Below are positions 15,051-58,843 of a stretch of DNA of 64,000 bases, one piece after another. Each line of letters opens with the position of its first letter. The first letter of the stretch is position 1. This DNA comes from Bradyrhizobium sp. CCBAU 051011. Lineage in GTDB: Bacteria; Pseudomonadota; Alphaproteobacteria; Rhizobiales; Xanthobacteraceae. Location: the NCBI RefSeq assembly GCF_009930815.1, contig NZ_CP022222.1:2212501-2276500 (forward strand). The letters run 5' to 3'. The position numbers and the translations under genes are program-made. Below the pieces are notes generated by a model. It was not told the origin of the DNA and ran no database searches. It saw only the letters and a program-made list of their open reading frames with translations.

Positions 15051-15745
15051 GCCCGATCGCCATGTGTGATCGCGGAGGGGTTGCGTCGCTCGATCCGATC
15101 GAGTTCGACGATCCAGCCGTGCCCGCCCGTGCGGCTGGAATGGAGTCGCGGTTGAATATTCCAATATTTAGTGGCTTCGGTCAATTCAGCCTCTACATCT
15201 TGGCCCTTGAGAAACAGCGCTTTCGCGCCATCTCTCACAAACGGCTCCGCGAAGCCGACAAGCTGATGTAATGGAGCCAGCGCCCGCGCAGTCACGCAAT
15301 CAACGCGACTTCCAATTCTATCCACAATATCCCCGATTCCCGCCAAATGCACGATTGCAGACGCGGAAGTTACGCGAATTGCCTCGCGCAGGAAGGCGGC
15401 CTTTTTGGCGTTCCTCTCGACCAGATGCACATTTGCGCCTGGCGTTTCCACCAGTGCACAGGCGAGCACCACGCCGGGAAATCCGCCGCCGCTGCCGAAA
15501 TCGACCCAGATTTTTTTTGATGGTGCCAGGTCGAGGAGTTGCAGCGAGTCGGAAATGTGCCGTGTCCAGAGATGCGGAAGCGTGGAGGGCGCCACGAGAT
15601 TCGTTTTGATCTGCCACTCAAGAAGGAGGGCGACGTAGCGTTCGAGCCGCGCCTCCGTTTCACTTGAAACGGGCGTGAGGGCCAGTGCGGCTGCTTTGTC
15701 GGAGGCCAGGATCGGCGAGGGGATCTCGGCAGCGGCTTTCGCCAT
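15047..15745 (-). CDS. rsmG: 16S rRNA m7G527 methyltransferase RsmG (GidB)
   Basis: SAM-dependent methyltransferase of 232 residues that modifies G527 of 16S rRNA; loss gives low-level streptomycin resistance in other bacteria. The SAM-binding loop is VDFGSGGGFPGVVLA. The core also has HLVERNAKKAAFLREA and VTARALAPLHQLV, as expected of the family. Its end overlaps the start of parA (ATGA), so the two are probably translationally coupled. Confidence 0.95.
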   Translation of the reverse strand: MAKAAAEIPSPILASDKAAALALTPVSSETEARLERYVALLLEWQIKTNLVAPSTLPHLWTRHISDSLQLLDLAPSKKIWVDFGSGGGFPGVVLACALVETPGANVHLVERNAKKAAFLREAIRVTSASAIVHLAGIGDIVDRIGSRVDCVTARALAPLHQLVGFAEPFVRDGAKALFLKGQDVEAELTEATKYWNIQPRLHSSRTGGHGWIVELDRIERRNPSAITHGDRA

Positions 15746-15788
15746 TGAACGGGTCTCAGGTGGGTTTGGATCGTAGTGGGTTTGGATC

Positions 15789-15869
15789 GTAGGATGGGTG
15801 GAGCGAAAGCGATACCCATCTTTCGGGCATCAGCAGCGATTGGGTATCGCTTCGCTCCACCCATCCTAC
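15789..15869. repeat. Dispersed palindromic repeat, TAGGATGGGTGGAG family
   Basis: GTAGGATGGGTGGAGCGAAA is mirrored by TTCGCTCCACCCATCCTAC, with ATACCCAT/ATTGGGTAT inside. A close relative of the repeat at 14115-14193. Located between mnmG and rsmG, directly beside a parS site. Confidence 0.75.
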
Positions 15870-15874
15870 ATCAA

Positions 15875-15890
15875 CGTTTCACGTGAAACA
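15875..15890. promoter_or_regulatory. parS site 1 (ParB-binding)
   Basis: CGTTTCACGTGAAACA, one mismatch from the perfect 16-bp palindrome TGTTTCACGTGAAACA that chromosomal ParB proteins bind. It lies just beyond the mnmG stop and about 1.9 kb from parB. Confidence 0.88.
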
Positions 15891-15895
15891 GATTC

Positions 15896-17779
15896 TTAAG
15901 CTGTCGCCTTCGCGCTCTTCCGTCGCGCCTCGCGCCGTAGATAGGCCGCCAGAATTCCAAGCGCCGCCGGCGTCAAACCATCGAGCCGACCCGCCTGCCC
16001 CACGGTCCGTGGCTGGGCCGCCTGAAGCTTTGACCGGGCCTCATTCGAAAGTCCGGGCACATCGGCATAGTCTATACCGGTCAGGACCAGACCTTCGTCG
16101 CGTCGGAAGGCATCGACGTCGGCGGTCTGGCGCTTGAGATAGACATCGTATTTGGCGTCGATCTCGAGATGCACGGCGATCGACGGATCGATAGCGGAGA
16201 GCTCCGGCCAGATACCGCGCAGGGTCGTCCACTCGACCTCCGGATAGGCCAACAGCTCGAATGCCGATCGGCGATGGCCGTCGCGGTTGAGCGCAAGGCC
16301 GTGCTTGGCCGCTTCGTTGGGAGTGATGCCCAGCGACTTGGCCAACGCCTTGGCGGCCTCCAACGCAGCCATCTTCTCGCGATGCCGTTGCGAACGCGCC
16401 TGCCCTACGCAGCCCAGAGCGATACCTTTGTCCGTCAGGCGCTGATCGGCGTTGTCGGCTCGAAGCGTCAGACGGTACTCGGCCCGCGAGGTGAACATCC
16501 GGTACGGCTCAGTGATCCCGCGGGTCACGAGGTCATCGATCATCACCCCGAGATACCCGTCAGCGCGATCGAACACGATCAGATCAGTGCCACCCGCCAT
16601 CAACGCAGCGTTCAGACCGGCTACGATCCCCTGAGCCGCCGCCTCTTCGTATCCTGTCGTGCCGTTGATCTGCCCAGCCAGGAAGAGACCGGGCAGACGC
16701 TTGGTCTGCAGGGTCGGCTCAAGCTCCCGCGGATCGACATGGTCGTATTCGATGGCGTAGCCCGGCCGGACCATCTTCACCCGCTCGAGGCCGGGAATGG
16801 TCGCGAGGATTGCGAGCTGCACCTCTTCCGGCAGCGAGGTCGAGATGCCGTTGGGATAGACGGTGGAGTCGTCGAGCCCTTCCGGCTCCAAAAAGATCTG
16901 GTGCCCGTCGCGATCGCCAAAGCGGACGATCTTGTCCTCAATCGAGGGACAATAACGCGGGCCGCTGCTCTTGATCTGACCGGAATACATCGGCGAGCGA
17001 TGCACATTGGCGCGGATGACCTCATGGGTCGCCGGCGTTGTCCGCGTGATGCCGCATTGGATCTGCGGCGTCGTGATCCGGTCGGTCATGACCGAGAACG
17101 GCTCTGGGGGCTCGTCACCGGGCTGCATTTCCACCGCAGACCAGTCGATGGTCGTGCCGTCGAGCCGCGGCGGCGTGCCGGTCTTCAACCGCCCCAGTGT
17201 AAACCCGGCACGCTCAAAGGACGCCGAAAGCCCCAGCGCGGGCTCCTCACCGACGCGGCCGGCGGGCCAGTTCTTTTCGCCGAGATGGATGAGGCCCCGG
17301 AGGAAGGTGCCTGTCGTGATAACGACCGCACCGGCCGCAAGCTCACGCCCGAACCCCAGCCGTACGCCCCTCACCTGGCCATTCGAAACGATCAGCTCAT
17401 CCGCCTCGCCATCGATCACGCTGAGGTTCGCCGTCTCCCGGATCGCGGTCTGCATGGCGGCGGCGTAGAGCTTGCGGTCCGCTTGGGCGCGCGGTCCGCG
17501 GACCGCCGGACCCTTGCGGCGGTTCAACATCCGAAACTGGATGCCGCCGGCATCGGCCACGCGACCCATCAGACCATCCAGAGCGTCGACTTCACGGACC
17601 AGATGGCCCTTGCCGAGCCCGCCGATCGCGGGATTGCAGGACATCGCTCCGATGGTCGCAAACCGATGGGTCACCAAAGCCGTCTTCGCGCCCATCCGCG
17701 CAGCCGCGCTCGCGGCCTCGCAGCCGGCATGGCCGCCGCCGATGACGATGACGTCGAATGAGTCTGCTTCGGAAATCAT
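15896..17779 (-). CDS. mnmG: tRNA uridine-5-carboxymethylaminomethyl synthesis enzyme MnmG (GidA)
   Basis: FAD-dependent partner of MnmE that installs the cmnm5 group on U34 of certain tRNAs. The 627-residue product has the FAD dinucleotide fold [15 protein letters not shown] near the N-terminus. The signatures [30 protein letters not shown] and [16 protein letters not shown] follow. The ATG at 17779 gives the standard N-terminus; the frame runs 35 codons further but that stretch is parS DNA. mnmE lies upstream on the same strand. Confidence 0.97.
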
Positions 17780-47186: not shown

Positions 47187-48094
47187 CTATGCCGCGCGCC
47201 TTAAATCCTCGGCCAGCGCGCGGTAGGACAGCGCTTCGGCCAGATGCAGCCGTCCGATTTTCTCCGCGCCATCGAGATCGGCGAGCGTGCGCGCGACGCG
47301 GAGCACGCGGTGATAGCCGCGCGCGGTGAGCTTCATGGTGTCGGCGGCGTCGCGCAGCAGTTTCTGGCCCTGCGCATCCGGCTGTGCGATCGTTTCCAAT
47401 AGCGAGGCCGGCGCTTCGGCATTGGTGCGGATCTGCGGCATGCCGGCCGTTGCGTAGCGTGCGAGCTGGATGTTCCGGGCGGCGGCGACGCGGGCAGCGA
47501 CTTCGGCCGAGCCTTCGGATGGCGGCGGCAGGATCAGGTCGGCGGCGGTCACCGCCGGCACTTCGATACGTAGGTCGATGCGGTCCATCAGCGGGCCGGA
47601 GATGCGCATCTGGTAATCAGACGTGCAGCGCTCGATGGGCGCGCGTCTGCAGGAATAACCGGGGTCATAGGCCTGGCCGCAGCGGCAAGGGTTCATCGCC
47701 GCGACCAGCATGAAGCGCGCGGGATAGGTGACGCGGTGATTGGCACGGGACACCGAGACCTCGCCGTTCTCCAGCGGCTGTCGCAAGGAATCGAGCACGC
47801 GCGGATCGAACTCCGGCAATTCGTCGAGAAACAGCACGCCCTGATGCGCCAGCGAAATCTCGCCGGGCCTGGCGCGCAGGCCACCGCCGGTCAGTGCGGC
47901 CATGCTGGCGGAATGATGCGGTGCGCGGAACGGCCGCCGCGCCGTCAATGCGCCGTCGCGGATTTCGCCGGCGACGGAGGCGATCATCGAGACTTCCAAC
48001 AGTTCGGACGGCGACAGCGGCGGCAGGATCGAGGGCAGTCGCGCCGCCAGCATCGACTTGCCGGCGCCGGGCGAGCCGATCATCAGCATGTGAT
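47187..48094 (-). pseudogene. comM: comM (yifB) 3' part, separated from its 5' part by an integrated element
   Basis: C-terminal 302 codons of the Mg-chelatase-like AAA+ helicase ComM/YifB, which drives branch migration during natural transformation. It begins inside the AAA domain at LMIGSPGAGKSMLAARLPS (Walker A) and includes LFLDELPEFDPRVLDSLRQP and GCGQAYDPGYSCRRAP-like Cys-rich sequence. It runs to the normal C-terminus (LSYRALAEDLRRAA). The 5' part is at 58221-58843. Joining at the TGAT shared by both ends restores the codons for GGHHMLMIG. Without its N-terminal half this piece is unlikely to work. Confidence 0.93.
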
Positions 48095-48131
48095 TGTCTC
48101 AGTGCCCATAGTGGGCCACCTGAAGGCAAAC
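48091..48131. other. Left attachment site (attL) of the island
   Basis: The comM sequence stops at TGAT (48091-48094). Element sequence TGTCTCAGTGCCCATAGTGG then runs to the recombinase start. Reading outward from TGAT, ATTGTCTCAG resembles ATTTGCTCAG reading out of the other end, the dyad expected of a serine-integrase attP. CCCAT followed by CACCTGA at 48105-48124 recalls the right-end core at 58191-58211. Confidence 0.7.
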
Positions 48132-49847
48132 ATGAACCGCATCAAAATCGCCCGTGGCTGCAATCCGCTCGGCTCAAATCATCAAGGGACAATACTCATC
48201 AACGAAGCCGATGCTCAGCGGCTGGGAGCACCCATGGACATGCAGCGGCCCGCGAGGGCGTACAGCTACGTGCGCTTCAGCACACCGGAGCAGGCGAAAG
48301 GCCATTCGCTCCAGCGGCAGACTGAGGCGGCGCAGGCATGGGCCGCTGCGAATGGTGTGGTGCTGGATGATGAGCTGACGTTTGAGGACAAGGGCGTCTC
48401 AGGGTTCCACGGAGCCAACCGAGAGACGGGTGCATTGGGCGTGTTCCTTGATCGGGTGCGAGACGGCACCATTCCTCCCGGCTCTTGGCTTCTGGTGGAA
48501 AACCTTGACCGCATCAGCAGGCAGGTAGCACGCAAGGCCGTGCGGGCGATTGAGGACATCGTTGAGGCCGGGATAACCGTTATAGACATGTCGGACGGCG
48601 GCCGGGAGTACAATGCCGCCGCGCTCGATAGCGACCCAGTGCTGTTCCTCATGATGGTGCTGCGCTTTATCCGCGCCAACGAGGAGAGCGCCACGAAGGG
48701 CGTGCGCGTCGCTAAGGCGCACGCTGCCAGACGACAGAAATTCGCAGGGCAAGAGAAGCTCACCAAGCCATACACCCGCAGGCTCCCTGCGTGGATACGA
48801 TGGAGTGACGAGGCCTCGGACTATGAGCTGATCGAAGACCGAAGCGCATTGCTGCGGTGGATGTTCGAAATGGCTGACGATGGCATGGGAGAATACAGCA
48901 TCGCTGCGCACCTCAATGCCACCAAGGAAGACACTTGGGGTGCGGGCAAGTGGAAGGCGGCGCATTGGCATCGCAGCTACATCCATAAGCTCCTCACCAA
49001 CAAGGCGGCCATTGGCGTCTTCGTGCCACACCGGGTTCAGAAGGTTGAAGGCAAGCGCACCAAACAGCGTGTCCCGCTGGAGCCCATCGCCCACAGGTTC
49101 CCCGCAGCCGTGGACCGAGAATTGTTTGAACGAGTGAACGCCCGCCTGAGCACCACAGAGGCGCGCGGTAGGAACGCCAAGGCTCCCGTGCGGTCCATCT
49201 TTGCGGGATTGGCGAAATGTCAGCACTGCGGGGGTACCGTCACTAGGGTCAACAAGGGGGAGCATGTGTATCTCGTGTGCTCGGCAGCGCACGCGAACGC
49301 GGGCACATGCAAGTACGAAAGCGTGCCCTACCACGATGCCGAAGTGGAGATGCGCCGGGTAATCCACCAAGTCTTGGATGCGGCTCCCCGGGGCAATGAC
49401 ACCGCAGAGATGGACGCCAAGATTGAGCAGATGCGTGCGGCGATTGATGTAGGCGAGGACAGGGTACGCGAGCTGCTGGAGCTAACTATCACCGACAAGA
49501 GCAGGGCAGCGAGACAGGCGCTGAACACCGCTGAACAGGAACTTGAGGAGACCACAGAGAGCCTGCGGAAGATGCTGGAGCGGCGGGACACCATGACTAG
49601 CACCAACGTCAAACTACGGCTGGCAGCAGTCGAGAAGGCGCTCACAGCGGAGCCCATGGACACTGAGGAAGCCAACAAGGCGCTGCGGGCCGCGGTGCGC
49701 AGGATGGTCATGAGGCCGCAGGAGGGGCGCTTGGACATCCTGTGGCACCACGCCGATGAGCCGCAAGAGACGCTGTTCATGACTAGCCGCTTCGATTGGG
49801 ACGCCAATCAGATTGAAAAGAAGAACACGGAAGAAACAGGGCTATGA
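48132..49847 (+). CDS. Large serine recombinase (integrase of the island)
   Basis: A 571-residue resolvase/invertase-type integrase. The catalytic domain has the nucleophile Ser50 in YVRFSTPEQAKGHSLQRQ and the arginine-bearing VENLDRISRQ. The Recombinase domain (about residues 215-330) follows. A zinc ribbon has CQHCGG and the later Cys residues of VCSAAHANAGTC, and a coiled coil runs from about residue 425 to 510. The ATG at 48132 (GAAGG upstream) gives an N-terminal extension of some 40 residues; an ATG at 48234 is an alternative. The attL site is immediately upstream and the stop overlaps the ParB-fold gene by four bases. Confidence 0.93.
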   Translation: MNRIKIARGCNPLGSNHQGTILINEADAQRLGAPMDMQRPARAYSYVRFSTPEQAKGHSLQRQTEAAQAWAAANGVVLDDELTFEDKGVSGFHGANRETGALGVFLDRVRDGTIPPGSWLLVENLDRISRQVARKAVRAIEDIVEAGITVIDMSDGGREYNAAALDSDPVLFLMMVLRFIRANEESATKGVRVAKAHAARRQKFAGQEKLTKPYTRRLPAWIRWSDEASDYELIEDRSALLRWMFEMADDGMGEYSIAAHLNATKEDTWGAGKWKAAHWHRSYIHKLLTNKAAIGVFVPHRVQKVEGKRTKQRVPLEPIAHRFPAAVDRELFERVNARLSTTEARGRNAKAPVRSIFAGLAKCQHCGGTVTRVNKGEHVYLVCSAAHANAGTCKYESVPYHDAEVEMRRVIHQVLDAAPRGNDTAEMDAKIEQMRAAIDVGEDRVRELLELTITDKSRAARQALNTAEQELEETTESLRKMLERRDTMTSTNVKLRLAAVEKALTAEPMDTEEANKALRAAVRRMVMRPQEGRLDILWHHADEPQETLFMTSRFDWDANQIEKKNTEETGL

Positions 49848-50800
49848 AGCATCAGCCAGCAAAGGCAAAACGAAAAGAGACAGTTGAGCGACGACGGGCC
49901 ATCACACGCGAGGGCATCAAGAGGCCGCGCGACACCGGCGCGACCAAGGAAGACATTGAGAGGAAATTAGCCACGAGTGCGACCCCGAAACACACAAAGG
50001 GGAGCGCTGTGGTGAAACTCAAGGTCAACAGCATCCGCGTGGCCCAAGAAGTGTTCCAGTGGAGAACGCCGCAGTACAACATGATACCGAGCGATGACCA
50101 TATTTTCGAAATGGCTAAGGCTATACAGAACACGGGCGCGCTAGAGCCGATACTCGTATTCCCGGTGGCTGATAAGTACTACGTGATAGATGGGCACCAC
50201 CGGCTAGCGGCCTACATCACGGCAGGATGGCAAGGCAGCATTCCAGCAAGAGTATTCACAGGCAGCCTGGATGAGGCCATGCGGGAGGCGCTAAAGCTCA
50301 ACATCAAGAACAAGCTGCCGATGACGACTAGAGACAAAACAGAGGCCGCATGGAGGTTAGTGAAGGAAGGCAGGCCGGGAGAGTGGCCGGACAGCATCAG
50401 CGAAACGATGAAATTAACAGGCGTCGGGAAAGGCACGGTGAACCGAATGCGCAGCGCATGGGAAACGCTGCACAACGCGCAGCATAGCGACCCTAAAACC
50501 GGTGAGCCCCCTAGGGACATCAGTTGGGCGCAGGCACAAGCCAAGATCAAGGGAAACGGAGAGCCGCAGTTCAATTACGACAGTTGGCTTGAGGAGCGAG
50601 CGCAGAACTTGGCGGAGGATATCGTCAGGGCGAAGCTGCACCTAGCGAAGGACATAGAAGTCACCGCACTCGCATTGGAGATGCTGGACCCGCAATTACC
50701 CGAGGCGCTCATGGCGCACTGGGCCCCGCCGCGTCCCTTTGATCCGGACGCGGTAGACGAGGACGAGTTGGACGAAGACGGCGAACGACTGCCATTCTAG
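49844..50800 (+). CDS. ParB/Srx-fold protein coupled to the recombinase
   Basis: A 318-residue protein with a basic N-terminus, a ParB/sulfiredoxin-like domain (about residues 60-150) and a Ser/Lys-rich helical C-terminal half. The domain has VNSIRVAQEVFQWR, ALEPILVFPVADKYYVIDGH and GHHRLAAYITAGW. GHHR replaces the GERR motif of chromosomal ParB, as in stand-alone ParB-like proteins of phages and plasmids. Helix-turn-helix-like ISETMKLTGVGKGTVNRMRS follows. The ATGA overlap suggests coupled expression with the integrase; it may be a directionality factor or partition protein, which is inference. Confidence 0.8.
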   Translation: MKHQPAKAKRKETVERRRAITREGIKRPRDTGATKEDIERKLATSATPKHTKGSAVVKLKVNSIRVAQEVFQWRTPQYNMIPSDDHIFEMAKAIQNTGALEPILVFPVADKYYVIDGHHRLAAYITAGWQGSIPARVFTGSLDEAMREALKLNIKNKLPMTTRDKTEAAWRLVKEGRPGEWPDSISETMKLTGVGKGTVNRMRSAWETLHNAQHSDPKTGEPPRDISWAQAQAKIKGNGEPQFNYDSWLEERAQNLAEDIVRAKLHLAKDIEVTALALEMLDPQLPEALMAHWAPPRPFDPDAVDEDELDEDGERLPF

Positions 50801-51233
50801 GCCACAGGTACCCCAACCCATGGTGCCCCTTTGGGGTAGGCTGGGGCGCAGCGCCTTAAAAGGCCGCAGTTGCCTTAACCCATAATGCCCCTTTGGGTAG
50901 CCAACAGAGGACTATGGCTTTGGGAAGCCACCGAGGATCGGGGAAGGAAGGCCCCTGCGAAACCCTACGGAGGCGCAGGATTCATTGTTGGCCCCTCGGC
51001 TACCCGGGGAGCGGCCACTCCAAACGGTCACCAGTGGATTCCGTAGAGTCTTCTGGAGCCCATTGCTCATATATGTGCACATATGCTCCCTTGGCTTTTG
51101 TCAGAGACGCTTCGGCGGCTCGCCCCTTGAAGCCGAGTAATTTGAAATCGGGGTGCCGGGGCCGTTCTAACAGGGGGCCCAGTACGCCGTATGGGACCCG
51201 TGAATTTCTGTGTGACCCCGGAGGGACAAGTCC
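50801..51233. other. Intergenic region after the ParB-fold gene
   Basis: 433 bp without a gene. Two hairpins open it: TACCCCAA paired with TTGGGGTA (50808-50838), then a second around 50878-50898 with ACCCATAATG and TTGGGT arms; they may end transcription of the integrase pair. The island repeat R1 lies at 51107-51213. Confidence 0.55.
51107..51213. repeat. Island intergenic repeat R1
   Basis: Shares CGGCGGC and TTGAAGCCGAGTAATTTGAA with R4 and R5, then GGGGGCCC (51173-51180) and TATGGGACCC (51190-51199), the hairpin pair also seen in R2 and R4. It lacks a clean terminal core motif, having GTGAATTTCTGTGTGACCCC in its place. Confidence 0.6.
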
Positions 51234-51966
51234 TTACCTCTTTCGTTTCCGTGGCACGGCCGCCTTTGCAGGAACAATGTCGATGACGTGCTCAGGGAGG
51301 AAAACGACAGGGCTCCCCCATTTTACATGCCGGTGGCGTATGTCGAAACCGAGCTTGGCCAGATCGGAGGCCTTTAGGGTCGTGCGCTGCTTCTCAGTCG
51401 GGATGTAGAAGGTCTTGGGATGCTTCTTGTTTGTCTTTACCCCGTTATGCAACGCCCAACCGTCCTGCTTCATTGTTGGAAGCCGGAGCAGCGGGGCCGT
51501 ACTCGTCCGTGGTCGTTTTGCAGGCGTATTGAAAATTGCGCGGAGAAGCTCTTCAAGGGTGCTGCTCGCCAAACGCTTTGAGCGAGCATCCACCGTGTAA
51601 ATACCACCAAGGTGTGTAGGGATGGCGCAGCTTCTACCCGGCTTGTGATCGCCTGCACGGAGCATTCCGCCGCGGGATGCCGGCCAACCTGTCGGCCGAA
51701 ATGATCTGCTGCTCGAACCCGACGCCGCCTTGGCGCGCGTTTGATTTACGGGCGTAGGCCGGAGTGCAAACGACAACCACGTGGCCGCTTGATCGTATCT
51801 TGCTCTCCATGAACTTGGTGAGACTCTCGCCTGCCTTCACATGCCATTGATCGAGCCATACCTTGACGCCATTCTGCTCAAGACGCGCGGCTAGGGATGC
51901 CACCCAACGCTCGTGCGTGGCGGCACTGTCCCACGAATAGGAGATGAAAGCGCTGGGCTGTCGCAT
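51234..51966 (-). pseudogene. TIR-domain protein, frameshifted
   Basis: The N-terminal frame (from the ATG at 51966) encodes a bacterial TIR domain: FISYSWDSAATHERWVASLA, VKVWLDQWHVKAGESL, VVVVCTPAYARKSNARQGG and VGFEQQIISADRLAGIPRR. The rest of the domain (LRAGDHKPGRSCAIPTHLGG, YTVDAR) lies in a second frame to 51234, with a lysine-rich C-terminal region of about 90 residues. The break is near 51660, and the 733-nt span is one over a multiple of three. TIR proteins of this form are often NAD-cleaving effectors of phage defence. Sequencing error is possible; otherwise it is inactive. Confidence 0.7.
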
Positions 51967-52206
51967 GATCGACTGCCGAGCTTACCGGTGGCGCAGTTCC
52001 CCCGGAAGTATCAGAGGTTGACCCTCCACAGCCTTGCGGGGCACCTCCGGCCTCTAGATACCCGGACGGTGCTGGGGCGCGCGGCCAAACCGACAGACCC
52101 CGACGGGGGATGGCGGGTAGTGCCCGGCCCGCCAGAGCCGCCCAGTCGGGGTATTCGCCACCCAGAACTAGTCATGGGTCATCATTGCGAAGTTAGCACC
52201 CTCGCC

Positions 52207-52281
52207 TTACAGGCCGATGAGGTGCTTCATGACCAACAGCGCATAGCCGGTGATCAGGAAGAAGTGGGCCACGGTTTCCAT
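52207..52281 (-). CDS. 24-residue hydrophobic small protein
   Basis: A short frame starting at ATG 52281 with a strong ribosome site (AAAGGAGGG eight bases upstream). It encodes METVAHFFLITGYALLVM followed by KHLIGL: one short membrane helix with a basic end. The length, hydrophobicity and unusually good start signal resemble type I toxins or membrane microproteins. No antisense RNA is evident by eye, and a function is not known. Confidence 0.45.
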   Translation of the reverse strand: METVAHFFLITGYALLVMKHLIGL

Positions 52282-52786
52282 GGACACCCTCCTTTCTTAT
52301 TTTCCGGTCAGTCAATTCTGCTTTTCCGGGGACGGTCGTTGCCGCCCAGCGGTGCTTATACGCGAAAAGCTTCGCCCTGCCCGCGGCTTTGCTTCCGTTC
52401 TCTGATAGCTCCCTGATCCATCCATCATTGGAGAAGCCCGTGGGAGGCTGAACAGAGAGCAACCGTCCGCGTGTGGGCTCCACCGAACCGCTCTGCCATG
52501 CGCAAAGATAGGGCCCGCACACTCATACCAGCCGTGGGCTGGGCCGCAGCCGCAGCTTTTAAGCAAGAGCTGTGAGTCGGGAAGGCCGGGGTCGATCAAA
52601 AATGGGGCCCGGTTGGTCATATGGGACCCGTGTGTTTCCCGTTGACGAAATCACCTCCTGGACCGTGAACGCTCCTGGAGACCGAGAAATAGCGTCAGAT
52701 TTGTCGCCGTTAATCAGACCGAGCTTGTTCTGGTAGAAGTTCCAAGGTAAGTCCACAGCACTGGTTCCACCTATGGGCAGTGCGGG
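52282..52786. other. Intergenic region of the island, contains repeat R2
   Basis: 505 bp with no convincing gene. Island repeat R2 lies at 52531-52656; the rest shows nothing I recognise apart from the start region of the next gene. Confidence 0.45.
52531..52656. repeat. Island intergenic repeat R2, with terminal core
   Basis: Has GCCGCAGCCGCAGCTTTTAA, then the hairpin pair TGGGGCCC (52603-52610) and TATGGGACCC (52620-52629). It ends in the core CCCGTTGACGAAATCACC (52638-52655), same orientation as the right end of the island. Confidence 0.65.
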
Positions 52787-53356
52787 ATGGCGGAAAGCCA
52801 CGAACATCAGCAAGAGACCGACCCAGTTCTTCTGAAGCAGAGCAGGGTTGAGGAGCGCTACGGCGAAGCAGGAAAAGCCGGGTGGGCGCCGGTCCCCGAT
52901 GTCCTTCTGCTCAACCAAAAGAGGTTAGGGATAAATAGTGCCGACCTGAACGTGTTGATGAACATGATCCTCCACTTCTACCGTCCCGGTGAGATGCCGT
53001 TCGTGAGGCCGAACGTGATTGCGAAGCGAATGGGGGTGGAGGAGAGAACTGTTCAAAGGGCGATTGCGAGACTGAGGAAACTTGGTCTCGTACGAAAAGG
53101 GAAGCACGAGAACGGACACATCACACACGACCTCACCCCGCTTCTGGAGCGGTTACAGCCTTATGCGAGAGAACGGATTGCCGAGCGCGAAAGGCGCAGG
53201 CAGGCAAATAGCGGCGTAGCTCAACTGGAAAGAGCCCCCGGTTTCGACACCATTGGCGGTCTGATGGTTGGCCGGGGAGATGCAGGTTCGAACCCTGCCG
53301 CCGCACCCGATATGCTCGTGACCGTCCAGAAGCCCGAGATGGGGCCGAAGACTTGA
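52787..53356 (+). CDS. Winged-helix DNA-binding protein
   Basis: A 189-residue frame whose first 140 residues are a winged helix of the kind found in rhizobial plasmid and phage regulators. Motifs are AGWAPVPDVLLLNQKRLGIN, LNVLMNMILHFYRPGEMPF and IAKRMGVEERTVQRAIARLR. The last 45 or so residues are read through a tRNA-like sequence (53210-53306) and end just before the R3 core. The natural C-terminus may therefore have been lost or fused. It may be a regulator of the island or a replication-type protein. Confidence 0.75.
   Translation: MAESHEHQQETDPVLLKQSRVEERYGEAGKAGWAPVPDVLLLNQKRLGINSADLNVLMNMILHFYRPGEMPFVRPNVIAKRMGVEERTVQRAIARLRKLGLVRKGKHENGHITHDLTPLLERLQPYARERIAERERRRQANSGVAQLERAPGFDTIGGLMVGRGDAGSNPAAAPDMLVTVQKPEMGPKT
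53210..53306 (+). tRNA. tRNA-Arg(UCG)-like sequence with a 23-nt insertion in the anticodon arm
   Basis: A cloverleaf can be drawn by eye: acceptor GCGGCG/CGCCGC (first pair mismatched A-A), D arm GCTC/GAGC with GG in the loop, anticodon stem CCCGG/CCGGG, five-base variable loop, T arm GCAGG-TTCGAAC-CCTGC. The anticodon loop begins TTTCGAC, a canonical 7-base loop with anticodon TCG, U33 and A37. The 23 bases at 53249-53271, partly self-paired (ACCAT/ATGGT), then separate it from the 3' stem. Without them the fold is canonical except for the A-A pair. No CCA is encoded. It may be a decayed tRNA or an att-related tRNA-like structure. Confidence 0.5.
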
Positions 53357-53390
53357 CGGGTGCGCGCATCTTCCCATTGAAGTAATTACC
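53321..53390. repeat. Island intergenic repeat R3, short, with terminal core
   Basis: AGAAGCCCGAGATGGGGCCG recalls part of R1 and is followed by CTTCCCATTGAAGTAATTAC, a diverged core (53373-53390). It marks the junction between the winged-helix unit and the MrcB/DUF3883 unit. Confidence 0.5.
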
Positions 53391-53422
53391 GCTGATCATT
53401 CTGGCGGAGGGGGGCCGCGTGA

Positions 53423-54520
53423 ATGCGAGACGAGCTTCTGGAGGTCATCAAGCTTCAACAAGACTACTCCGCAGCCAACACACCGGCGATGCAACGGCGC
53501 GGGGAGCTCATCAGGCGTGTAATCCGGGAGCAGCTTGAGGACGTGAGCGAGCAGCTGCGCCATGCTCTAGGCGCGCACGGTGTCGACTTGGACTTTGAGG
53601 GAAGGGATGGCACGGGACGCAAGACGCGCATCCCGTGGGTTCGCTTCTACTCCAAGGCCCGCTCCCACAGCGCGCAAGATGGATGGTACTGCGTGTACCT
53701 GTTCGATGCGCCAGGGACCGGCGTGTACCTTGAGCTCGGTCACGGCTCAACGACGCTAGAAGGAGGAGAGTTCCGACCCCGTCCACCGGAGGAGCTAGCC
53801 AGGCTGGTGGCCTGGGGGCGCGAGGCCCTCAAGTCGATCATCAGTGATGAACCGGCATTAGCGTTGCCGATGAAGCTGGGAGGGCGAGAGCTCGGAGACG
53901 CCTACGAGCGAAGCGCCGTTCTTGCGAAGTGGTACCCGGCCGATGACATGCCCAGCGACGAGGAGCTGCTCAATGACGCCGTTGCGTTCGCGGGATACCT
54001 GAAGCTCGTTTACGATGCGGAGGTTCTTGGGCTGGCTCCTACAGCGCCACCGCCCGAAGTTGTTGAGGTCGAGAGAGCAGCCTCTGGACAATCTCAGCGC
54101 CGCAGCAAGGCGCAGGGATTTGGATTGAACACGGCGGAACGTTTAGCGGTGGAGCTGCATGCGATGGCGCTCGCGAAGTCCCACCTGCAGGAGCTCGGGT
54201 GGCGCGTCCGAGACGTAAGCGCGACACATCCCTATGACTTTGAGTGCACGCAGGGCGAACAGCAAATGGTCGTCGAGGTTAAAGGGACGACATCAACTGG
54301 AGAGGAGGTCGTCGTCACGCACAATGAGGTCGAGGTTCAGCGAATGCGATACCCGAACAACGCGCTTATTGTGGTGCACTCTGTCGACTTGCTGCGGTCC
54401 GCTGACACACCAAAGGCCCGTGGGGGAATGCTGTTGATGCGTTCGCCATGGGAGATTGAAGACAACCACTTACGCCCGATTGCCTTCAGATGCGCAGTCC
54501 AGCGAGAGGAGCTCAGCTAG
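53423..54520 (+). CDS. MrcB-like N-terminal domain plus DUF3883 nuclease-like protein
   Basis: A 365-residue two-domain protein. Residues about 1-190 match the MrcB N-terminal domain (PWVRFYSKARSHSAQDGWYC, VYLFDAPGTGVYLELGHGST), which in type IV restriction enzymes and relatives reads modified DNA. Residues about 235-360 are DUF3883 (ERLAVELHAMALAKSHLQEL, YDFECTQGEQQMVVEVKGT), whose E-x-K core is that of restriction-type nucleases. Such proteins occur in defence islands. A GGAGGGG site precedes the ATG. The cleavage role is inferred from domains only. Confidence 0.8.
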   Translation: MRDELLEVIKLQQDYSAANTPAMQRRGELIRRVIREQLEDVSEQLRHALGAHGVDLDFEGRDGTGRKTRIPWVRFYSKARSHSAQDGWYCVYLFDAPGTGVYLELGHGSTTLEGGEFRPRPPEELARLVAWGREALKSIISDEPALALPMKLGGRELGDAYERSAVLAKWYPADDMPSDEELLNDAVAFAGYLKLVYDAEVLGLAPTAPPPEVVEVERAASGQSQRRSKAQGFGLNTAERLAVELHAMALAKSHLQELGWRVRDVSATHPYDFECTQGEQQMVVEVKGTTSTGEEVVVTHNEVEVQRMRYPNNALIVVHSVDLLRSADTPKARGGMLLMRSPWEIEDNHLRPIAFRCAVQREELS

Positions 54521-54997
54521 TGGAAGCCGGGCTTGCACGAATGGGCGGTGGAGAAACCGCACGCAACCGTATTTCGCCGGAGCGCCCCACTGCTGATGTG
54601 AGCCGAGCGGCGGCAGCAGCTCTTTAAGGCGAGGAACCGAAATCGCCTGAGCGACCGCGTCCAATTTGGGACCCATAGGCATGTATGGGACCCAGTATTG
54701 CGCGTTGGCCCCTCCGGCGGATGCCTTTTTCCCATTGACGAAATTCACATGCTGACGCGCGAGTGAAACTAAAGCTCGCGCCGCCCCGGGCAGCCGACTT
54801 CGCCTACCTGTGCACTCCAGTGGATACTGCAGGATAACCGCGGAACAAATGCTGGACGGGACGAGAATCGATGTAAATTACGAGCGGCAAGACGCGAATC
54901 GACGCGGCTTCTCCAACCGACGCCCAGCCCTGACACGGCCCGGGGCGCAGGTGCGCTTTCGGGGCAGCGGGGACCATACCCCGCCATGGAGAAGTAA
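54521..54997. other. Intergenic region of the island, contains repeat R4
   Basis: 477 bp. Island repeat R4 is at 54599-54751; beyond it to 54997 I see no gene. Short frames on the minus strand reading out of the core (54470-54748) are not supported. Confidence 0.5.
54599..54751. repeat. Island intergenic repeat R4, with terminal core
   Basis: Starts AGCCGAGCGGCGGCAGCAGC, then TTTAAGGCGAGGAACCGAAA, aligning with R5. The hairpin pair is TTGGGACCCA (54668-54677) and TATGGGACCCA (54685-54695). It ends with the clearest core, CCCATTGACGAAATTCAC (54731-54748) plus ATGCTG. Confidence 0.7.
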
Positions 54998-55135
54998 ATG
55001 CTTTCGTGTTCTCTGCCGCGGCCGGTCTACGTCCGGTCGTACTACCGCTTTCGCAAGGGGCGGCTTGAGTTCGTAACGGAGCATTGCCGCGGGCGGCCCG
55101 GCTCGCGCCGGAACCACACCGCGACTGCTATGTAA
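54998..55135 (+). CDS. Small basic hypothetical protein (45 aa)
   Basis: Short frame with ATGGAGAAGTAA just before the ATG, giving a GGAG site at good spacing. The product contains RPVYVRSYYRFRKGRLEFVT and ends rich in Arg. The pattern V-Y-V-R-S-Y-x-R recalls tiny basic proteins common in bradyrhizobial and phage genomes, without known function. A terminator follows 20 bases after the stop, supporting expression. Confidence 0.5.
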   Translation: MLSCSLPRPVYVRSYYRFRKGRLEFVTEHCRGRPGSRRNHTATAM

Positions 55136-55155
55136 CGTCTCTGTCCAAGACTTGG

Positions 55156-55187
55156 CCTCCGCTCTCAACCGGGCGGAGGTCCTTTTT
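55156..55187 (+). terminator. Intrinsic terminator
   Basis: CCTCCGC (55156-55162) pairs with GCGGAGG (55173-55179) over a ten-base loop and is followed by TCCTTTTT. It ends the transcript of the 45-residue ORF. Confidence 0.75.
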
Positions 55188-55418
55188 CTCCACCATCGAG
55201 GGTGAAGAACTCGAATCCGACGCGACCGGCTAAGCCGTATCGGAAATGCCCAAAATCCTTATGTGTTTCACGCGCCCCGAGCGGCAGCGGCGCACTCGCT
55301 GTAATGCTGACTTCAGCACCTCGCCGAATCGTTTTCGATAACGCATTCGGCTGTCTCAAGAATTTCCCCCGTCATTCTGAGTAGGAAGAATCCTATAATT
55401 CCAATTCTCATAACGCAA

Positions 55419-55449
55419 CGTTTCACGTGACGTGAAATATGTTTCACGG
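55419..55449. promoter_or_regulatory. Split parS-like palindrome
   Basis: GTTTCACGTGACGTGAAAT: the two halves of the host parS palindrome with GTGAC spacing enlarged by three bases, followed at 55441 by another GTTTCACG half-site. A further half-site TGTTTCACGC is at 55263. Host ParB might bind weakly; the island's own ParB-fold protein is another candidate. Confidence 0.4.
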
Positions 55450-55579
55450 CCTTTTTCCCCTGCGGACCTCGCAGGCCCCGATTGGAGAATCTGCAGTAAG
55501 CGGGGCGGCGCGGCCTTACGCTTCGGTGGCCTCCGGGGGCGAGGGGCCGGCATGCCGCCTCTGATGTCAGGGCGCGCGC

Positions 55580-55861
55580 CTAACGTCCAATGCTCTGCAG
55601 CGACCGCCCAGCCGCTATCAAGCCGTCTGCTGCCGCGTCACTGCGAGCCTGCCTTTGCGCTTCCTCCACCTGCGCCTGCTGCCGATAGTAGAGCAGGTTC
55701 CGGCGGCACTGCTGATAGGCATCCGCGCCTTTGCCTGCCGATAACCCCCTGCACGAAGCGTCATCCTGAGCTTCCATCTTGGCCGCCCTCACGCCTGCGT
55801 CCTCCCTTTCCATGCAGCCGGAAAGGGACACAAGGCACAGCACCAACATCAACGCGCGCAT
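55580..55861 (-). CDS. Small putative lipoprotein
   Basis: A 93-residue product with signal MRALMLVLCLVSLSGC, a good lipobox (LSGC, Cys16). The body is helical and Gln/Ala/Arg-rich (YRQQAQVEEAQRQARSDAA) with a C-x(n)-C pair (SCRGLSAG, QQCRRN). It lies 16 bases after a membrane protein gene on the same strand, so the pair is probably one unit. No family recognised. Confidence 0.65.
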   Translation of the reverse strand: MRALMLVLCLVSLSGCMEREDAGVRAAKMEAQDDASCRGLSAGKGADAYQQCRRNLLYYRQQAQVEEAQRQARSDAAADGLIAAGRSLQSIGR

Positions 55862-55877
55862 CTTCAGCCCCACGCTC

Positions 55878-56681
55878 CTATGCACGGTCCCACGGTCCCC
55901 GGGAACCCGCGGCGGGAGGCGGAGGGACGCTCGGAACAGTGCGCTGCCGCGGAGGATCAGGGACGGTCGGGACCTCGGAGGAGCGGAAGGCCTGACGCAC
56001 CGGGACATTCGGAGCAGCGAAGCGTTCCACGAACTCCTTGGCAGGCCCGGGCGTCTCCCGGGGACCAACGAAGACGTAGCGAACACCGCGACCGAACAAC
56101 CAGACTGCAGCCGCAACCGCCAGGAGCGCCCACGCGAGGGTAGGATCACCGCGCCCATTGACGAAGATCAGGACGGCCGGCGCTGCGCAGATGAGAGCAA
56201 CGGCGTTGAATAGCCAGCCGAGGAAAACACCAAGGCGGCCCAGCATTCCAAGAGCAGGAGGTGGCAAAGGACTACTCGCTATTGCAGAGGGGGCGGGGAT
56301 GGGAGGGGATGCAGGAGCACCAGCGGTGACACCAGAGGTTCCTGAGGGCTTCACCACAGGCCGCCTAGCTGGTGGCGTGTCTCGCTCCAGCCACTCCTTG
56401 AGTGGCAGCGCCATCCCTGCGCAGATCAGCACGACGAATGCGGCTTCAACGTCGAACAGAACGGTGTGGATCAATCGATCCACGATGGCCCAATGCGTTG
56501 GCTGGAAGTCCGCAGGAATACCGAGTTGAGAGCCGAGCGTGTATGACGGCCACTTACCTGTCTGAAGCCACTGTACTACCTGATAGCCCAGACCGATCAT
56601 CGCACCGAGCGCCATGACATCACCGAATATCGCGAGCGCGCCGACGAACAGCGCGGCGTAAAACACGTAAGTCCAATCCAC
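55878..56681 (-). CDS. Island membrane protein of unknown function
   Basis: From the GTG at 56681 (GGTAGGGG upstream) a 267-residue product with two hydrophobic blocks. About three helices lie in residues 5-110 (FYAALFVGALAIFGDVMALG) and three in residues 145-205 (LGRLGVFLGWLFNAVALICA). A Pro/Ala-rich stretch separates them, and a cytosolic Pro-rich tail follows. A GTG 16 codons upstream is possible. No family recognised. It precedes a small lipoprotein, so an envelope role is plausible. Confidence 0.65.
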   Translation of the reverse strand: MDWTYVFYAALFVGALAIFGDVMALGAMIGLGYQVVQWLQTGKWPSYTLGSQLGIPADFQPTHWAIVDRLIHTVLFDVEAAFVVLICAGMALPLKEWLERDTPPARRPVVKPSGTSGVTAGAPASPPIPAPSAIASSPLPPPALGMLGRLGVFLGWLFNAVALICAAPAVLIFVNGRGDPTLAWALLAVAAAVWLFGRGVRYVFVGPRETPGPAKEFVERFAAPNVPVRQAFRSSEVPTVPDPPRQRTVPSVPPPPAAGSRGPWDRA

Positions 56682-57206
56682 GGAGGCAGCCCCTACCTGA
56701 TTTGACCGAAGGATACCCAAGGGACGCACTGCGGCTCAACTGAACCATAGTGCAACCAAGGACGCACACCGCTGCCGTGAGCCGAGGAGACGACGAAGAC
56801 CTTGAAGGCAGGCGGCCCCCGGCAGTGAAGCGGTTATTGCGTCAGCTCGGGGTGATGGAACATCCACAGCATGAATGCAAATGTTAGGAGGCAGAGGACG
56901 CTGGTTGGGCTTCCTCAGTTCCCGTCTCCACAACCAAACTGACCCACAGCCTTGGGGCTCGGATTACGGCTATTGCTGTGAGCCGGGCAGCGGCGGCCTT
57001 GAAGTCGAGGAACTTGAAAGCGCCAGCATAGACCCAAAACGCATAGCACCGACGGGGCGCATGTGCATGACATTTGCCACTGAGTAGATCATGTGCTGAC
57101 GCTGAACGCCGGGCACCTGATGGGCGGGCGTGAGGAATGGCGCGGACCAGGTTTCTTGTAAGGAGACGCTTCACACGGAAAGCGCAAAAATTGCCATTGA
57201 AGAAAG
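56682..57206. other. Intergenic region of the island, contains repeat R5
   Basis: 525 bp upstream of the membrane protein and downstream of the DUF2726-type gene. A weaker GAGCCG-like segment lies near 56780-56835 and R5 occupies 56979-57213. Short frames here (for example 56875-57087 plus) lack support. Confidence 0.5.
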
Positions 57207-57213
57207 TCACCTG
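56979..57213. repeat. Island intergenic repeat R5, with terminal core
   Basis: TGAGCCGGGCAGCGGCGGCC and TTGAAGTCGAGGAACTTGAA (56999-57018) align with R4. It is longer than the others, with about 150 bp of unrelated sequence before the core GCCATTGAAGAAAGTCACC (57193-57211). Confidence 0.65.
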
Positions 57214-57821
57214 TTCGTCCGCAACGGAACGGTTGGTGAGGCACTTTCTGCTTGCGCTATCCGCGAAATCTCTCGGGCCATGTCCTCGGCGCCACTCTCG
57301 GGCGTAACCTCGATGTACCGGACCCCGGCCTTTCGCAGTGCCTCTTTCTTAACGGCATCTCGCGCTGCAGCAGTTCCTTGGTAGTGGCCGTATCCTTGGT
57401 ACTCAATAGCCGCAATCGGATCGCCGCTGCGGGAGACGATGAGAAGGTCGACGCGCTTGCTGTTGATCGCACTGTAGGCCCGCGCATCCGGGGAGGAGAG
57501 AACCTCACCCAAGCTAACTTGCGCCATCACGCGCCACTGGAGGTCCGCAATGTTGATTGCCTTTTCGGCGGCGTACAAAACCTGGGCCTCCGACCGTGAG
57601 AGGAGGCGGCGCTTCTTAAACACAGCACCCATGACCAGGCGAAGCTGCTCTGCGGGGTCGGTGACAGGAGCTGCTCCCGCCTCCACCCCGCCTTCACCTC
57701 TCCTCCGACGCCACGCTCGACGTGCCAGCTCCGCGCGAAGACGTTCGCAGCAAAGACCGGCGAGGAATGCGGCCACGACGGTAATGAACACAATTGGCAG
57801 ATCGCCTTGCAAGCCTTGCAT
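57207..57821 (-). CDS. Membrane-anchored DUF2726-like (nuclease-fold) protein
   Basis: A 204-residue protein with an N-terminal helix (LPIVFITVVAAFLAGLCCE) and a cytosolic domain. KKRRLLSRSEAQVLYAAEKA is followed by YSAINSKRVDLLIVSRSGDP, IAAIEYQGYGHYQGTA and ARDAVKKEALRKAGVRYIEV. The D-x(n)-E-x-Q/K pattern and the final strand match DUF2726, a restriction-endonuclease-like family of unknown role. The canonical E-x-D/K is seen here as EYQGYGH. It starts at ATG 57821 and its end overlaps the R5 core by seven bases. Confidence 0.75.
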   Translation of the reverse strand: MQGLQGDLPIVFITVVAAFLAGLCCERLRAELARRAWRRRRGEGGVEAGAAPVTDPAEQLRLVMGAVFKKRRLLSRSEAQVLYAAEKAINIADLQWRVMAQVSLGEVLSSPDARAYSAINSKRVDLLIVSRSGDPIAAIEYQGYGHYQGTAAARDAVKKEALRKAGVRYIEVTPESGAEDMAREISRIAQAESASPTVPLRTNR

Positions 57822-58067
57822 AGCGTTGGCTTCCCGTTGAGGGTCTCGCAGCGACTTGTAGGCAGTAAGGCTTGATCGTCTTGCTCGGGTTGCCAATTTC
57901 TTGTGATTTTCCGTCAAAGATGGTTTCTGCCACCCTTCCGGCTCGGGAGCCGCGAACGCTACGCCGCCTTCGCGACGACGAATAACTTCAAGAACGGCTG
58001 GTACGGGTATCCCGTCCAATGCGGCGCGGCCTCCCCTCGGTTGCGACAGACCAATGCTGCACCGGCG

Positions 58068-58217
58068 CGAGCCGGATGAAGGCAGGCTGCTGCCGACGGC
58101 TTTAGCCCTCGATTTTTGAAGCCAGAGGGGCCGAGCTCCAGCCAAAACGGTACCATGCCCCAAGGGGGCCCCAAAATCTGATCCAAAATTCCCATTGACG
58201 ACACCACCTGAGCAAAT
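58068..58217. repeat. Island intergenic repeat R6, terminal copy
   Basis: GAGCCGGATGAAGGCAGGCT and TTTTTGAAGCCAGAGGGGCC, then GCCCCAAGGGGGCCCC. It ends in the core CCCATTGACGACACCACCTG (58191-58210), which is also the right end of the island. Confidence 0.6.
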
Positions 58218-58220
58218 GAT
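58191..58220. other. Right attachment site (attR) of the island
   Basis: Element sequence ending CACCTGAGCAAATGAT meets comM (GTCCGCCGGC). The last four bases TGAT match the chromosomal TGAT at 48091-48094, giving a minimum crossover region of four bases. Confidence 0.75.
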
Positions 58221-58843
58221 GTCCGCCGGCTGCGGCAATCTCCAGCGCACGCTTTGCACTTTCCTGGCCTTTGATATCGCGCAGGTCGAGATGGGTTGCT
58301 TCCTGCTCGTGCACGCGCGGCTGCGGACGCGACAGCACCTGCGTGCCCTTAAAATGGTTGGCGATCTGGATCAGCGATTTGGCCGCGATGATCTGGATAT
58401 CCGGGCTCGCCCAGGCCGCTTCCGAGCCGCATGCGGCGGGACAGATCAGCCCTTCCTCGCGCGCGTTCGCCCCGATCGCAGCCGGCAGCACGCCTGCGAC
58501 CGGCGCGATCGATCCATCGAGCCCGAGCTCGCCGAGCACGGTAAAGCCGTTGAGCGCATCCGGCGGGATCGCGCCGATCGCAGCCATCAGGCCGAGCGCG
58601 ATCGGCAGATCGTAATGGCTGCCTTCCTTCGGCACGTCGGCCGGTGCGAGGTTGACCGTGATCCGGCGGGCAGGGAGCGCCAGACCCGAGGCGATCAGCG
58701 CTGAGCGGACCCGCTCCCGCGCTTCCGACACCGCCTTGTCCGGCAGGCCGACGATCGCAAACGCCGGTAGGCCGGGCGCGACCTGCACCTGCACGTCGAC
58801 CGCGCGGGCCTTCAAAGGCTACAGTAGATACCCGCGCGACCAT
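58221..58843 (-). pseudogene. comM: comM (yifB) 5' part, separated and frameshifted
   Basis: N-terminal part of ComM/YifB: VAPGLPAFAIVGLPDKAVSE, ITVNLAPADVPKEGSHYDLP and GFTVLGELGLDGSIAPVAGV are diagnostic of its Lon-like N-terminal domain. The true start is the ATG at 58843 (VSTVAFEG), but the frame then breaks: FEG and ARAVDVQVQV lie in different frames. An 8-nt loss near 58815 fits, since the whole gene then totals 1539 nt. The piece ends in AAGGHH at the island border. The 3' part is at 47187-48094. Confidence 0.92.

Follow-up and report, generated by a model that had tools for sequence, protein, structure and literature searches.

Integrons consist of the integrase IntI, the attI site, and arrays of attC cassettes. 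The pdif modules depend on host Xer tyrosine recombinases acting at 28-bp sites, and to our knowledge the known builders of gene-cassette arrays (integrons and pdif modules) use tyrosine recombinases. Among elements with large serine recombinases, SCC elements carry Ccr enzymes and stack at one chromosomal gene; we know of no second, integrase-independent cassette site in SCC elements or ssrA islands. Resolvases are said to have a shuffling function, as in the title "The shuffling function of resolvases" (Kholodii, 2001). Here we analyzed a stretch of 64,000 nucleotides from Bradyrhizobium sp. CCBAU 051011 (hereafter, the window), in which an island of ~10 kb splits comM and contains repeated copies of an oriented segment, designated RES. 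With moderate confidence, we read RES as a res-like crossover site and the islands that contain it as integron-like cassette arrays that would be shuffled by small serine recombinases.

In Acinetobacter plasmids, pdif modules are described as genes flanked by recombination sites for XerC/XerD and are thought to be mobile as modules (PMC6449649). The account of the SGI1 resolution system gives a res site of ~120 bp (about 107–120) with three boxes and a 28-bp core (PMC12217951). The ssrA islands of Dehalococcoides are reported at one chromosomal gene (PMC3146451). The arrays studied here resemble integrons in that small-gene cassettes each end in a site of one orientation, a cassette can be common to different arrays, and a recombinase gene stands at the array end in many RES loci. 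They differ in being tied to a serine rather than a tyrosine recombinase, in having sites without a conserved hairpin fold, in carrying genes in both orientations, and in riding in mobile islands. Where an integron has IntI beside its array, the window has a large serine recombinase, and array ends elsewhere have small serine resolvases. Site-flanked genes as modules are shared with the pdif system, which differs in its Xer enzymes, 28-bp sites, and plasmid location. The Tn3-type and SGI1 systems also place a small serine resolvase beside a site of similar length with a core dyad and accessory boxes, in the latter case in genomic islands (PMC12217951), whereas in our loci several RES copies punctuate cassettes. 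SCC and ssrA islands share the location at one chromosomal gene and differ in stacking at att sites. In open-licence literature, searched by titles and abstract openings (subscription papers being outside this scope), neither resolvase-linked cassette arrays nor Bradyrhizobium comM serine-recombinase islands appeared among the matches listed.

RES Sites and Their Orientation

RES is the name given to a segment of ~94–115 bp upstream of an 18-bp motif that recurs in the island. A preliminary description of this DNA had noted related segments before four of five motif copies, and these were recovered before 52638, 54731, 57193 (degenerate), and 58191. The segment before the copy at 53373, called weak there, gave only a partial match (E 0.16). 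Beyond those four, a sixth related segment was found at 51108, with no motif after it. The RES copies in the window are as follows.

51108..51202, + strand: RES copy 1, without a P′ half-site after it (nhmmer, model R1)
52539..52632, + strand: RES copy 2 (nhmmer, model R1)
54603..54696, + strand: RES copy 3 (nhmmer, model R1)
56983..57054, + strand: RES copy 4, degenerate (nhmmer E 4.4e-9; missed by R1)
58082..58174, + strand: RES copy 5 (nhmmer, model R1)

An iterated nucleotide hidden Markov model (HMM) found 40 matches at E < 0.01 on the fetched islands, all on the + strand. Thirty-one of these lie in islands with a recombinase and are oriented like it; the other nine are in G110, G077, and G234, which had been oriented beforehand by the motif, and two of the nine are bare motifs. 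Across the genus, model R1 matches 77 of 265 genomes (E ≤ 1e-3). The 86 regions requested, together with the window, yielded 117 RES sites in 80 loci, with G025 and G052 being near-identical. In 26 of the 27 multi-site loci all RES copies point the same way (G066 is mixed), which amounts to one oriented site per cassette; cassette B of the window ends in a bare P′ half-site instead. Within 397 genomes of the order (E ≤ 1e-4 and stricter filters), RES was observed in four Bradyrhizobium genomes, with one weak partial match in another family, and one RES queried against 72,556 plasmid records gave no match. We rejected a plain genomic repeat as an explanation, because R1 matches in the host genome are confined to the island (four copies) and one partial weak match at 123411.

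Each RES comprises a GC-rich stretch, a CTTTAAGnC...TTTGAAG stretch, and a ~26-bp dyad (GGGnCC ... GGGACCC). The spacing of the dyad arms is 18–20 bp in 79 of the 84 sites with both arms recognized (search range 15–22 bp; 31 sites unrecognized). An alignment of 34 copies covers 93 model positions with a mean column identity of 61%. The RNAalifold consensus of these copies has 0 base pairs, so RES was rejected as an RNA element; an attC-like hairpin is absent from the consensus.

Linkage to Small Serine Resolvases

The 80 loci, which were selected by RES and not by resolvase, contain 38 resolvase-family open reading frames (ORFs), all on the − strand. Thirty-four of them are convergent with a RES and lie within 700 bp after it (24 of family B, seven of family A, and three of family C), and 32 of these follow the last RES. 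Random placement and strand gave a mean of 1.6 and a maximum of 7 in 2000 trials. One representative of each of the three families has a Pfam Resolvase domain. By locus, a resolvase follows the last RES in 31 of 80, corresponding to 31 of 60 loci of non-comM type and none of 20 of comM type.

The resolvase-bearing loci include many tyrosine-integrase islands, and RES occurs in islands with unrelated integrases. In 12 of one subset of 20 RES loci, a tyrosine recombinase is encoded upstream and in the same direction; it lies at the far end of the array and is read as the island integrase. Because RES is found in islands with other integrases and directly precedes a resolvase gene in 31 of the 80 loci, a small resolvase is a likelier shuffling enzyme than the large recombinase encoded at the left end. 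The preliminary description had proposed integron-like shuffling by a serine recombinase; the oriented units and the serine enzyme are retained here, and the large recombinase gives way to the small resolvase as the likelier agent. The window island has no resolvase gene of its own. A family-B resolvase that is 78% identical to the one in G009 is encoded at 6.34 Mb of the same genome, far from the island and with no RES beside it.

Homology Breakpoints at RES

One cassette with a 164-aa gene is common to G004, G009, and G059 (the G004 copy is 88.2% identical to that of G009 and 82.8% to that of G059). When G004 is compared with either of the others, homology of this cassette spans RES to RES and ends there, and the neighboring cassettes and the resolvase family differ; G004 and G059 also share the island backbone further upstream. 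Similarly, G024 and G194a have ~113 bp plus a RES in common, and identity breaks in the dyad spacer, after which the former has a family C and the latter a family B resolvase.

To replace hand-picked pairs, a breakpoint profile was built from all pairs passing the cut-offs among 94 sites above 35 bits, with excess identity measured relative to unrelated RES pairs. The eight pairs related only upstream have an excess of 0.29–0.48 from the 5′ flank to the dyad center and 0.20 in the right arm, followed by 0.16 and −0.03. The 11 non-comM pairs related only downstream have 0.07–0.12 up to the linker and 0.16–0.20 in the dyad, followed by 0.23 and 0.07. In six pairs sharing both flanks, identity is high throughout. 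These profiles support a switch of homology within the RES dyad, and as the pairs overlap in members, this is support and not proof. From such breakpoints, we infer that cassettes may be acquired and shuffled.

Candidates for a clean cassette insertion were also considered. The set G024/G045/G194a was rejected, since the last RES of G045 is followed by ~350 bp without a match. In addition, the homology between G024 and G194a includes the preceding RES and ~110 bp to either side of it, whereas the cassette interior in between differs.

The comM Island and Its Attachment Sites

The window belongs to a 9.1-Mb genome on a single contig (G000), and its named relatives are Bradyrhizobium. The island occupies comM between an attL center at 48085–48086 and an attR center at 58211–58212, and its gene order is a large serine recombinase, a ParB_N protein, and five cargo units (Pfam).

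47187..48089, − strand: C-terminal part of the interrupted comM (ORF, tblastn)
48085..48116, no strand: attL, central AG (48085–48086) plus P arm CATGTGATTGTCTCAGTGCCCATAGTGGGC (comparison with left ends of ten related islands)
48234..49847, + strand: large serine recombinase with Resolvase, Recombinase, and zinc ribbon domains (Pfam)
49844..50800, + strand: ParB_N-domain protein (Pfam; relatives adjoin the recombinase in other islands)
58191..58212, + strand: attR, P′ half-site CCCATTGACGACACCACCTG plus central AG (comparison of island ends)
58213..58815, − strand: N-terminal part of the interrupted comM (ORF, tblastn)

The Pfam domains bear out the earlier assignment of a large serine recombinase to the left end. 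At E ≤ 1e-60, this recombinase has matches in 23 of the 265 genus genomes (its own included) at 25 places. Eleven islands, including that of the window, form one recombinase clade (clade 1; 68–100% identity), and a comM half adjoins the recombinase in all of them (tblastn). The right ends of eight and the left ends of eleven islands lie at the same comM codon, as in large-serine-recombinase islands. The clade 2 recombinase is ~43% identical and inserts elsewhere in comM, near the gene start; its half-site, read in three islands, is TTGTCATTGAC. RES is present in islands of both clades, which differ in half-site, and may or may not be followed by P′.

The right end reads nTCCCATTGAnGAAAnnAnnTG followed by comM in seven other islands (G017, G070, G245, G025, G011, G055, and G052), confirming the last motif copy of the window as the right att site. 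It is degenerate in G063, and the sequences of G051 and G202 stop before it. The left ends of the ten relatives read CATGTGAT, with CGTGTGAT in G051. These ends imply an attP that is imperfectly palindromic, with a central CT in nine of ten left and five of seven right ends and TT in the remainder (hand reading). The window island has AG at the center, which corresponds to CT on the complementary strand, and its direction of insertion is opposite to that of the other ten clade 1 islands. The central dinucleotide sets orientation in phage serine integrases; if the same holds here, the AG center and the opposite insertion would be expected. Comparison of the island ends identifies the 18-bp motif as the P′ half of the attachment site of the large serine recombinase, distinct from the RES segment upstream.

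Five motif copies in one orientation had been reported, and a search for TTCCCATTGACGAAAT with up to three mismatches in the 14 kb around the island found only these, all on the + strand (52636, 53371, 54729, 57191, and 58189). These coordinates start at two leading T and denote the same copies as 52638, 53373, 54731, 57193, and 58191. Such copies exceed chance expectation: the reported 18-mer with up to three mismatches has 3 matches in 64 kb versus 0.07 in shuffles, and TTCCCATTGACGAAATCA with one mismatch has 11 matches in nine of 265 Bradyrhizobium genomes versus 0 for the reversed control pattern. The usual half-site form is CCCATTGACGAAATCAC-NTG, and the copies at 54731 and 57193 therefore each have one extra nucleotide. 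The following dinucleotide is CT in two of five window copies and 12 of 20 hand-read copies, and AG at the right end of the island. The internal copies are as follows.

52638..52657, + strand: internal P′ half-site, 1 mismatch, then CT (sequence)
53373..53392, + strand: bare internal P′ half-site, 2 mismatches, without RES before it (sequence)
54731..54751, + strand: internal P′ half-site, one extra nucleotide, then CT (sequence)
57193..57213, + strand: internal P′ half-site, 3 mismatches, one extra nucleotide (sequence)

Of the three 18-mer matches, the one at 56154–56171, with three mismatches and inside the 283-aa gene of cassette D, is probably due to chance. Each of seven other clade 1 islands (3.9–10.4 kb) has a single motif copy, and among the fetched loci repeats occur only in the window (five), G110, and G077 (two). 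Thus, of the proposal that each unit junction is a recombinase half-site, the half-site part holds, whereas the motif is not a general unit boundary. Homologous islands carry different cargo at the same comM site, as had been anticipated; their cargo is not fixed, and most of them lack internal motif copies. G110 has four copies in 5 kb on one contig and one on another, and its 20-kb stretches gave no match to the recombinase, ParB, or comM queries. The same ~49 nt follow each of two bare P′ half-sites in L061 (G110, contig C123; at 13996 and 15383 in reversed coordinates) and are absent from the other 256 of 257 genus genomes searched.

Other observations concern these and neighboring att sites. 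In L063 (G077) and L064 (G234), an intact comM is followed by an island tail (RES and P′) and then by an internally gapped remnant of the comM C-terminal part, which suggests restoration of comM next to an old island. Words resembling CCATTGA lie within 260 bp after 32 of 116 RES sites, compared with a background of 4.7%, and after 17 of the 101 without clade 1 half-sites; CCATTGAT words stand close after RES in the non-comM loci L082 (G019), L086 (G159c16), L084 (G192), and L041 (G191). The half-sites of different integrases may share a CCATTGA-like core. In another island family (L106 in G011b, L109 in G017b, L096 in G176, and L108 in G193b), RES is closely followed by a CTGTTCGTAATTCGG...CGAACAG palindrome that is probably the att site of that family. 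In L034 (G245) and L041 (G191), a ~45-aa ORF (EARRII.EYAE.L.EI.R.LRR.L) directly precedes the clade 2 half-site and could encode a directionality factor; G110 has a look-alike. Finally, two 37-nt direct repeats (81% identical, starts 62 nt apart) lie directly after the ParB gene of the window at 50799–50897.

Cassettes and Cargo

The 35 cassettes between RES copies have a median length of 1330 bp. Their longest ORF is on the − strand in 21, on the + strand in 12, and absent in two, in agreement with the variable cargo orientation described initially. Domain scans covered the window, G004, three G110 proteins, and one protein each of G045 and G009. The cargo of the window is as follows.

51237..51966, − strand: cassette A, SEFIR/TIR defense-like gene in two overlapping pieces (Pfam; PADLOC bSEFIR on both)
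52787..53356, + strand: cassette B, DnaD_N/HTH protein (Pfam)
53210–53306: tRNA-like sequence overlapping the end of the cassette B ORF (Rfam tRNA, 43.4 bits)
53423..54520, + strand: cassette C, MrcB_N and NOV_C protein (Pfam)
55583..56729, − strand: cassette D, overlapping 192-aa and 283-aa ORFs (ORFs)
57207..57932, − strand: cassette E, DUF2726 nuclease-like protein, with its stop codon inside the P′ motif (Pfam, sequence)

The bSEFIR-like gene of cassette A is split over two frames, and its pieces match successive parts of one PADLOC profile. The tRNA-like sequence, just before the bare P′ copy, has ~25 extra nt in the anticodon arm and was missed by ARAGORN. The comM island of G011 carries a relative of the 283-aa protein as cargo (60% over 237 aa by tblastn); the other window cargo has no match in the other fetched RES loci. 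The G004 locus carries Mrr_cat, SIR2, and HerA proteins. Two further features lie in the window. A suhB/mmgR-like match at 55120–55194 scores 30.4 bits, below the Rfam gathering score of 41 bits, and TTTCACGTGA/TTTCACG repeats, which look parS-like, occur nearby at about 55422–55455.

Proposed Mechanism and Alternative Explanations

In the mechanism that we propose, the comM island of a large serine recombinase would carry a cassette array in which most cassettes end in a RES, a cassette being a gene together with the RES to its right. Resolvases would bind and recombine RES; crossover in the dyad between directly repeated copies would add, remove, or swap cassettes, with the GC-rich stretch as a putative accessory part and the resolvase-proximal RES as the presumed entry point. 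Since the window island lacks its own resolvase, its array would either depend on a resolvase supplied in trans, such as the one encoded at 6.34 Mb, or be a relic. The internal P′ copies may represent further insertions at the right end of the island, a second process at the integrase site in which either islands would stack or the large recombinase would recombine P′ junctions.

Several observations weigh against this mechanism. The loci examined yielded no circle carrying RES, no empty site, and no clean insertion of a single cassette, and a comparison for one RES in one locus against RES-cassette-RES in another gave no case. No resolvase follows the last RES in 29 of 60 non-comM-type loci or in any of the 20 comM-type loci. 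A search for family-B-like resolvases gave 45 matches in 33 of 98 genomes, and clear RES copies stand at only seven of the 30 loci fetched, plus two weak ones. One of the 38 resolvase-family ORFs (G193, 14255–15985) probably encodes a large recombinase, and fragments are included in the count, such that merging leaves 33 of 37 linked to RES. The breakpoint pairs are few besides overlapping in members, and 14 downstream-only pairs of comM islands have approximately no excess identity except 0.28 at the dyad center. Compared with Tn3-type sites, the length and core dyad of RES fit, whereas only the dyad is clearly palindromic, the other subsites being weakly symmetric. The distance between the centers of sites I and II is ~47–49 bp by hand count, which does not correspond to an integral number of helical turns. 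RES is found beyond the 3′ end of the resolvase gene, unlike in Tn3, where the site is upstream. The use of one site type by three resolvase families would also be unusual.

Alternatively, though this is unlikely in our judgment, whole comM islands may have stacked at the right end, with older copies losing recombinase and ParB and RES being a conserved right-end sequence. P′ (ATCACNTG-CT) is similar to the comM left half-site (CATCATNTG-CT), by which attR would still be usable as a target, as when SCC elements stack. Tandem accretion and decay would also fit the internal RES and P′ pairs in the window, G110, and G077, and the island tails with comM remnants that adjoin intact comM in G077 and G234. 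However, RES without P′ also occurs in islands with a tyrosine integrase and next to small resolvases. Only one P′ is present in each of the seven other islands, and in four of these (G017, G055, G070, and G245) a total of five internal RES copies lack P′. Moreover, no second recombinase or ParB was found in the window island by tblastn at E ≤ 1e-8, the most sensitive search made for remnants of left ends, and no P arm was seen by eye at the starts of the window units (no dedicated remnant search).

It is improbable that the large serine recombinase itself uses junctions of P′ and any sequence as cassette sites, with circles arising by P′ × P′ recombination and re-entering at attR. The internal P′ copies are recognizable, with a CT center in six of nine (two of four in the window, three of four on the first G110 contig, and one of one in G077; hand count), and two G110 units start with the same ~49 nt directly after P′ without RES. 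Nevertheless, internal clade 1 P′ copies occur only in the window, G110, and G077 among the fetched loci, and P′ is missing from most RES loci. Each of the four internal window copies has one to three mismatches or an extra nucleotide, and two centers are TG or TT.

Very doubtful, finally, is a functional DNA element without a role in crossover, kept by islands and copied with cargo (for example a terminator, a site for transfer or packaging, or a segregation site bound by a ParB-like protein), since, although a ParB-like protein is present in all ten clade 1 islands with sequence beyond the recombinase and in all eight clade 2 islands, RES lies downstream of its gene in 10 of 10 and seven of eight, respectively, and RES has repeated GGGnCC and TTnAAG half-sites, there is no RNA fold, the two ParB queries have no match in any of the 20 RES loci of one subset, and neither the tight resolvase linkage nor the dyad breakpoints are predicted.

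Implications for Gene Capture in Bradyrhizobium

Returning to the resolvase-based mechanism, its extension to the genus is more tentative than the reading of RES as a crossover site. In Bradyrhizobium, a small resolvase with an adjacent RES may be the serine-recombinase equivalent of an integron: it may capture and store cassettes (many perhaps for defense), exchange them, reside in islands of different integrases, and be able to act in trans on those comM islands that lack a resolvase. The 117 sites and three resolvase families are a ready test set for plasmid recombination assays. If true, the association of a cassette signature across the genus with small serine recombinases would constitute a second route to modular gene capture and would help explain the exchange of cargo in small islands.

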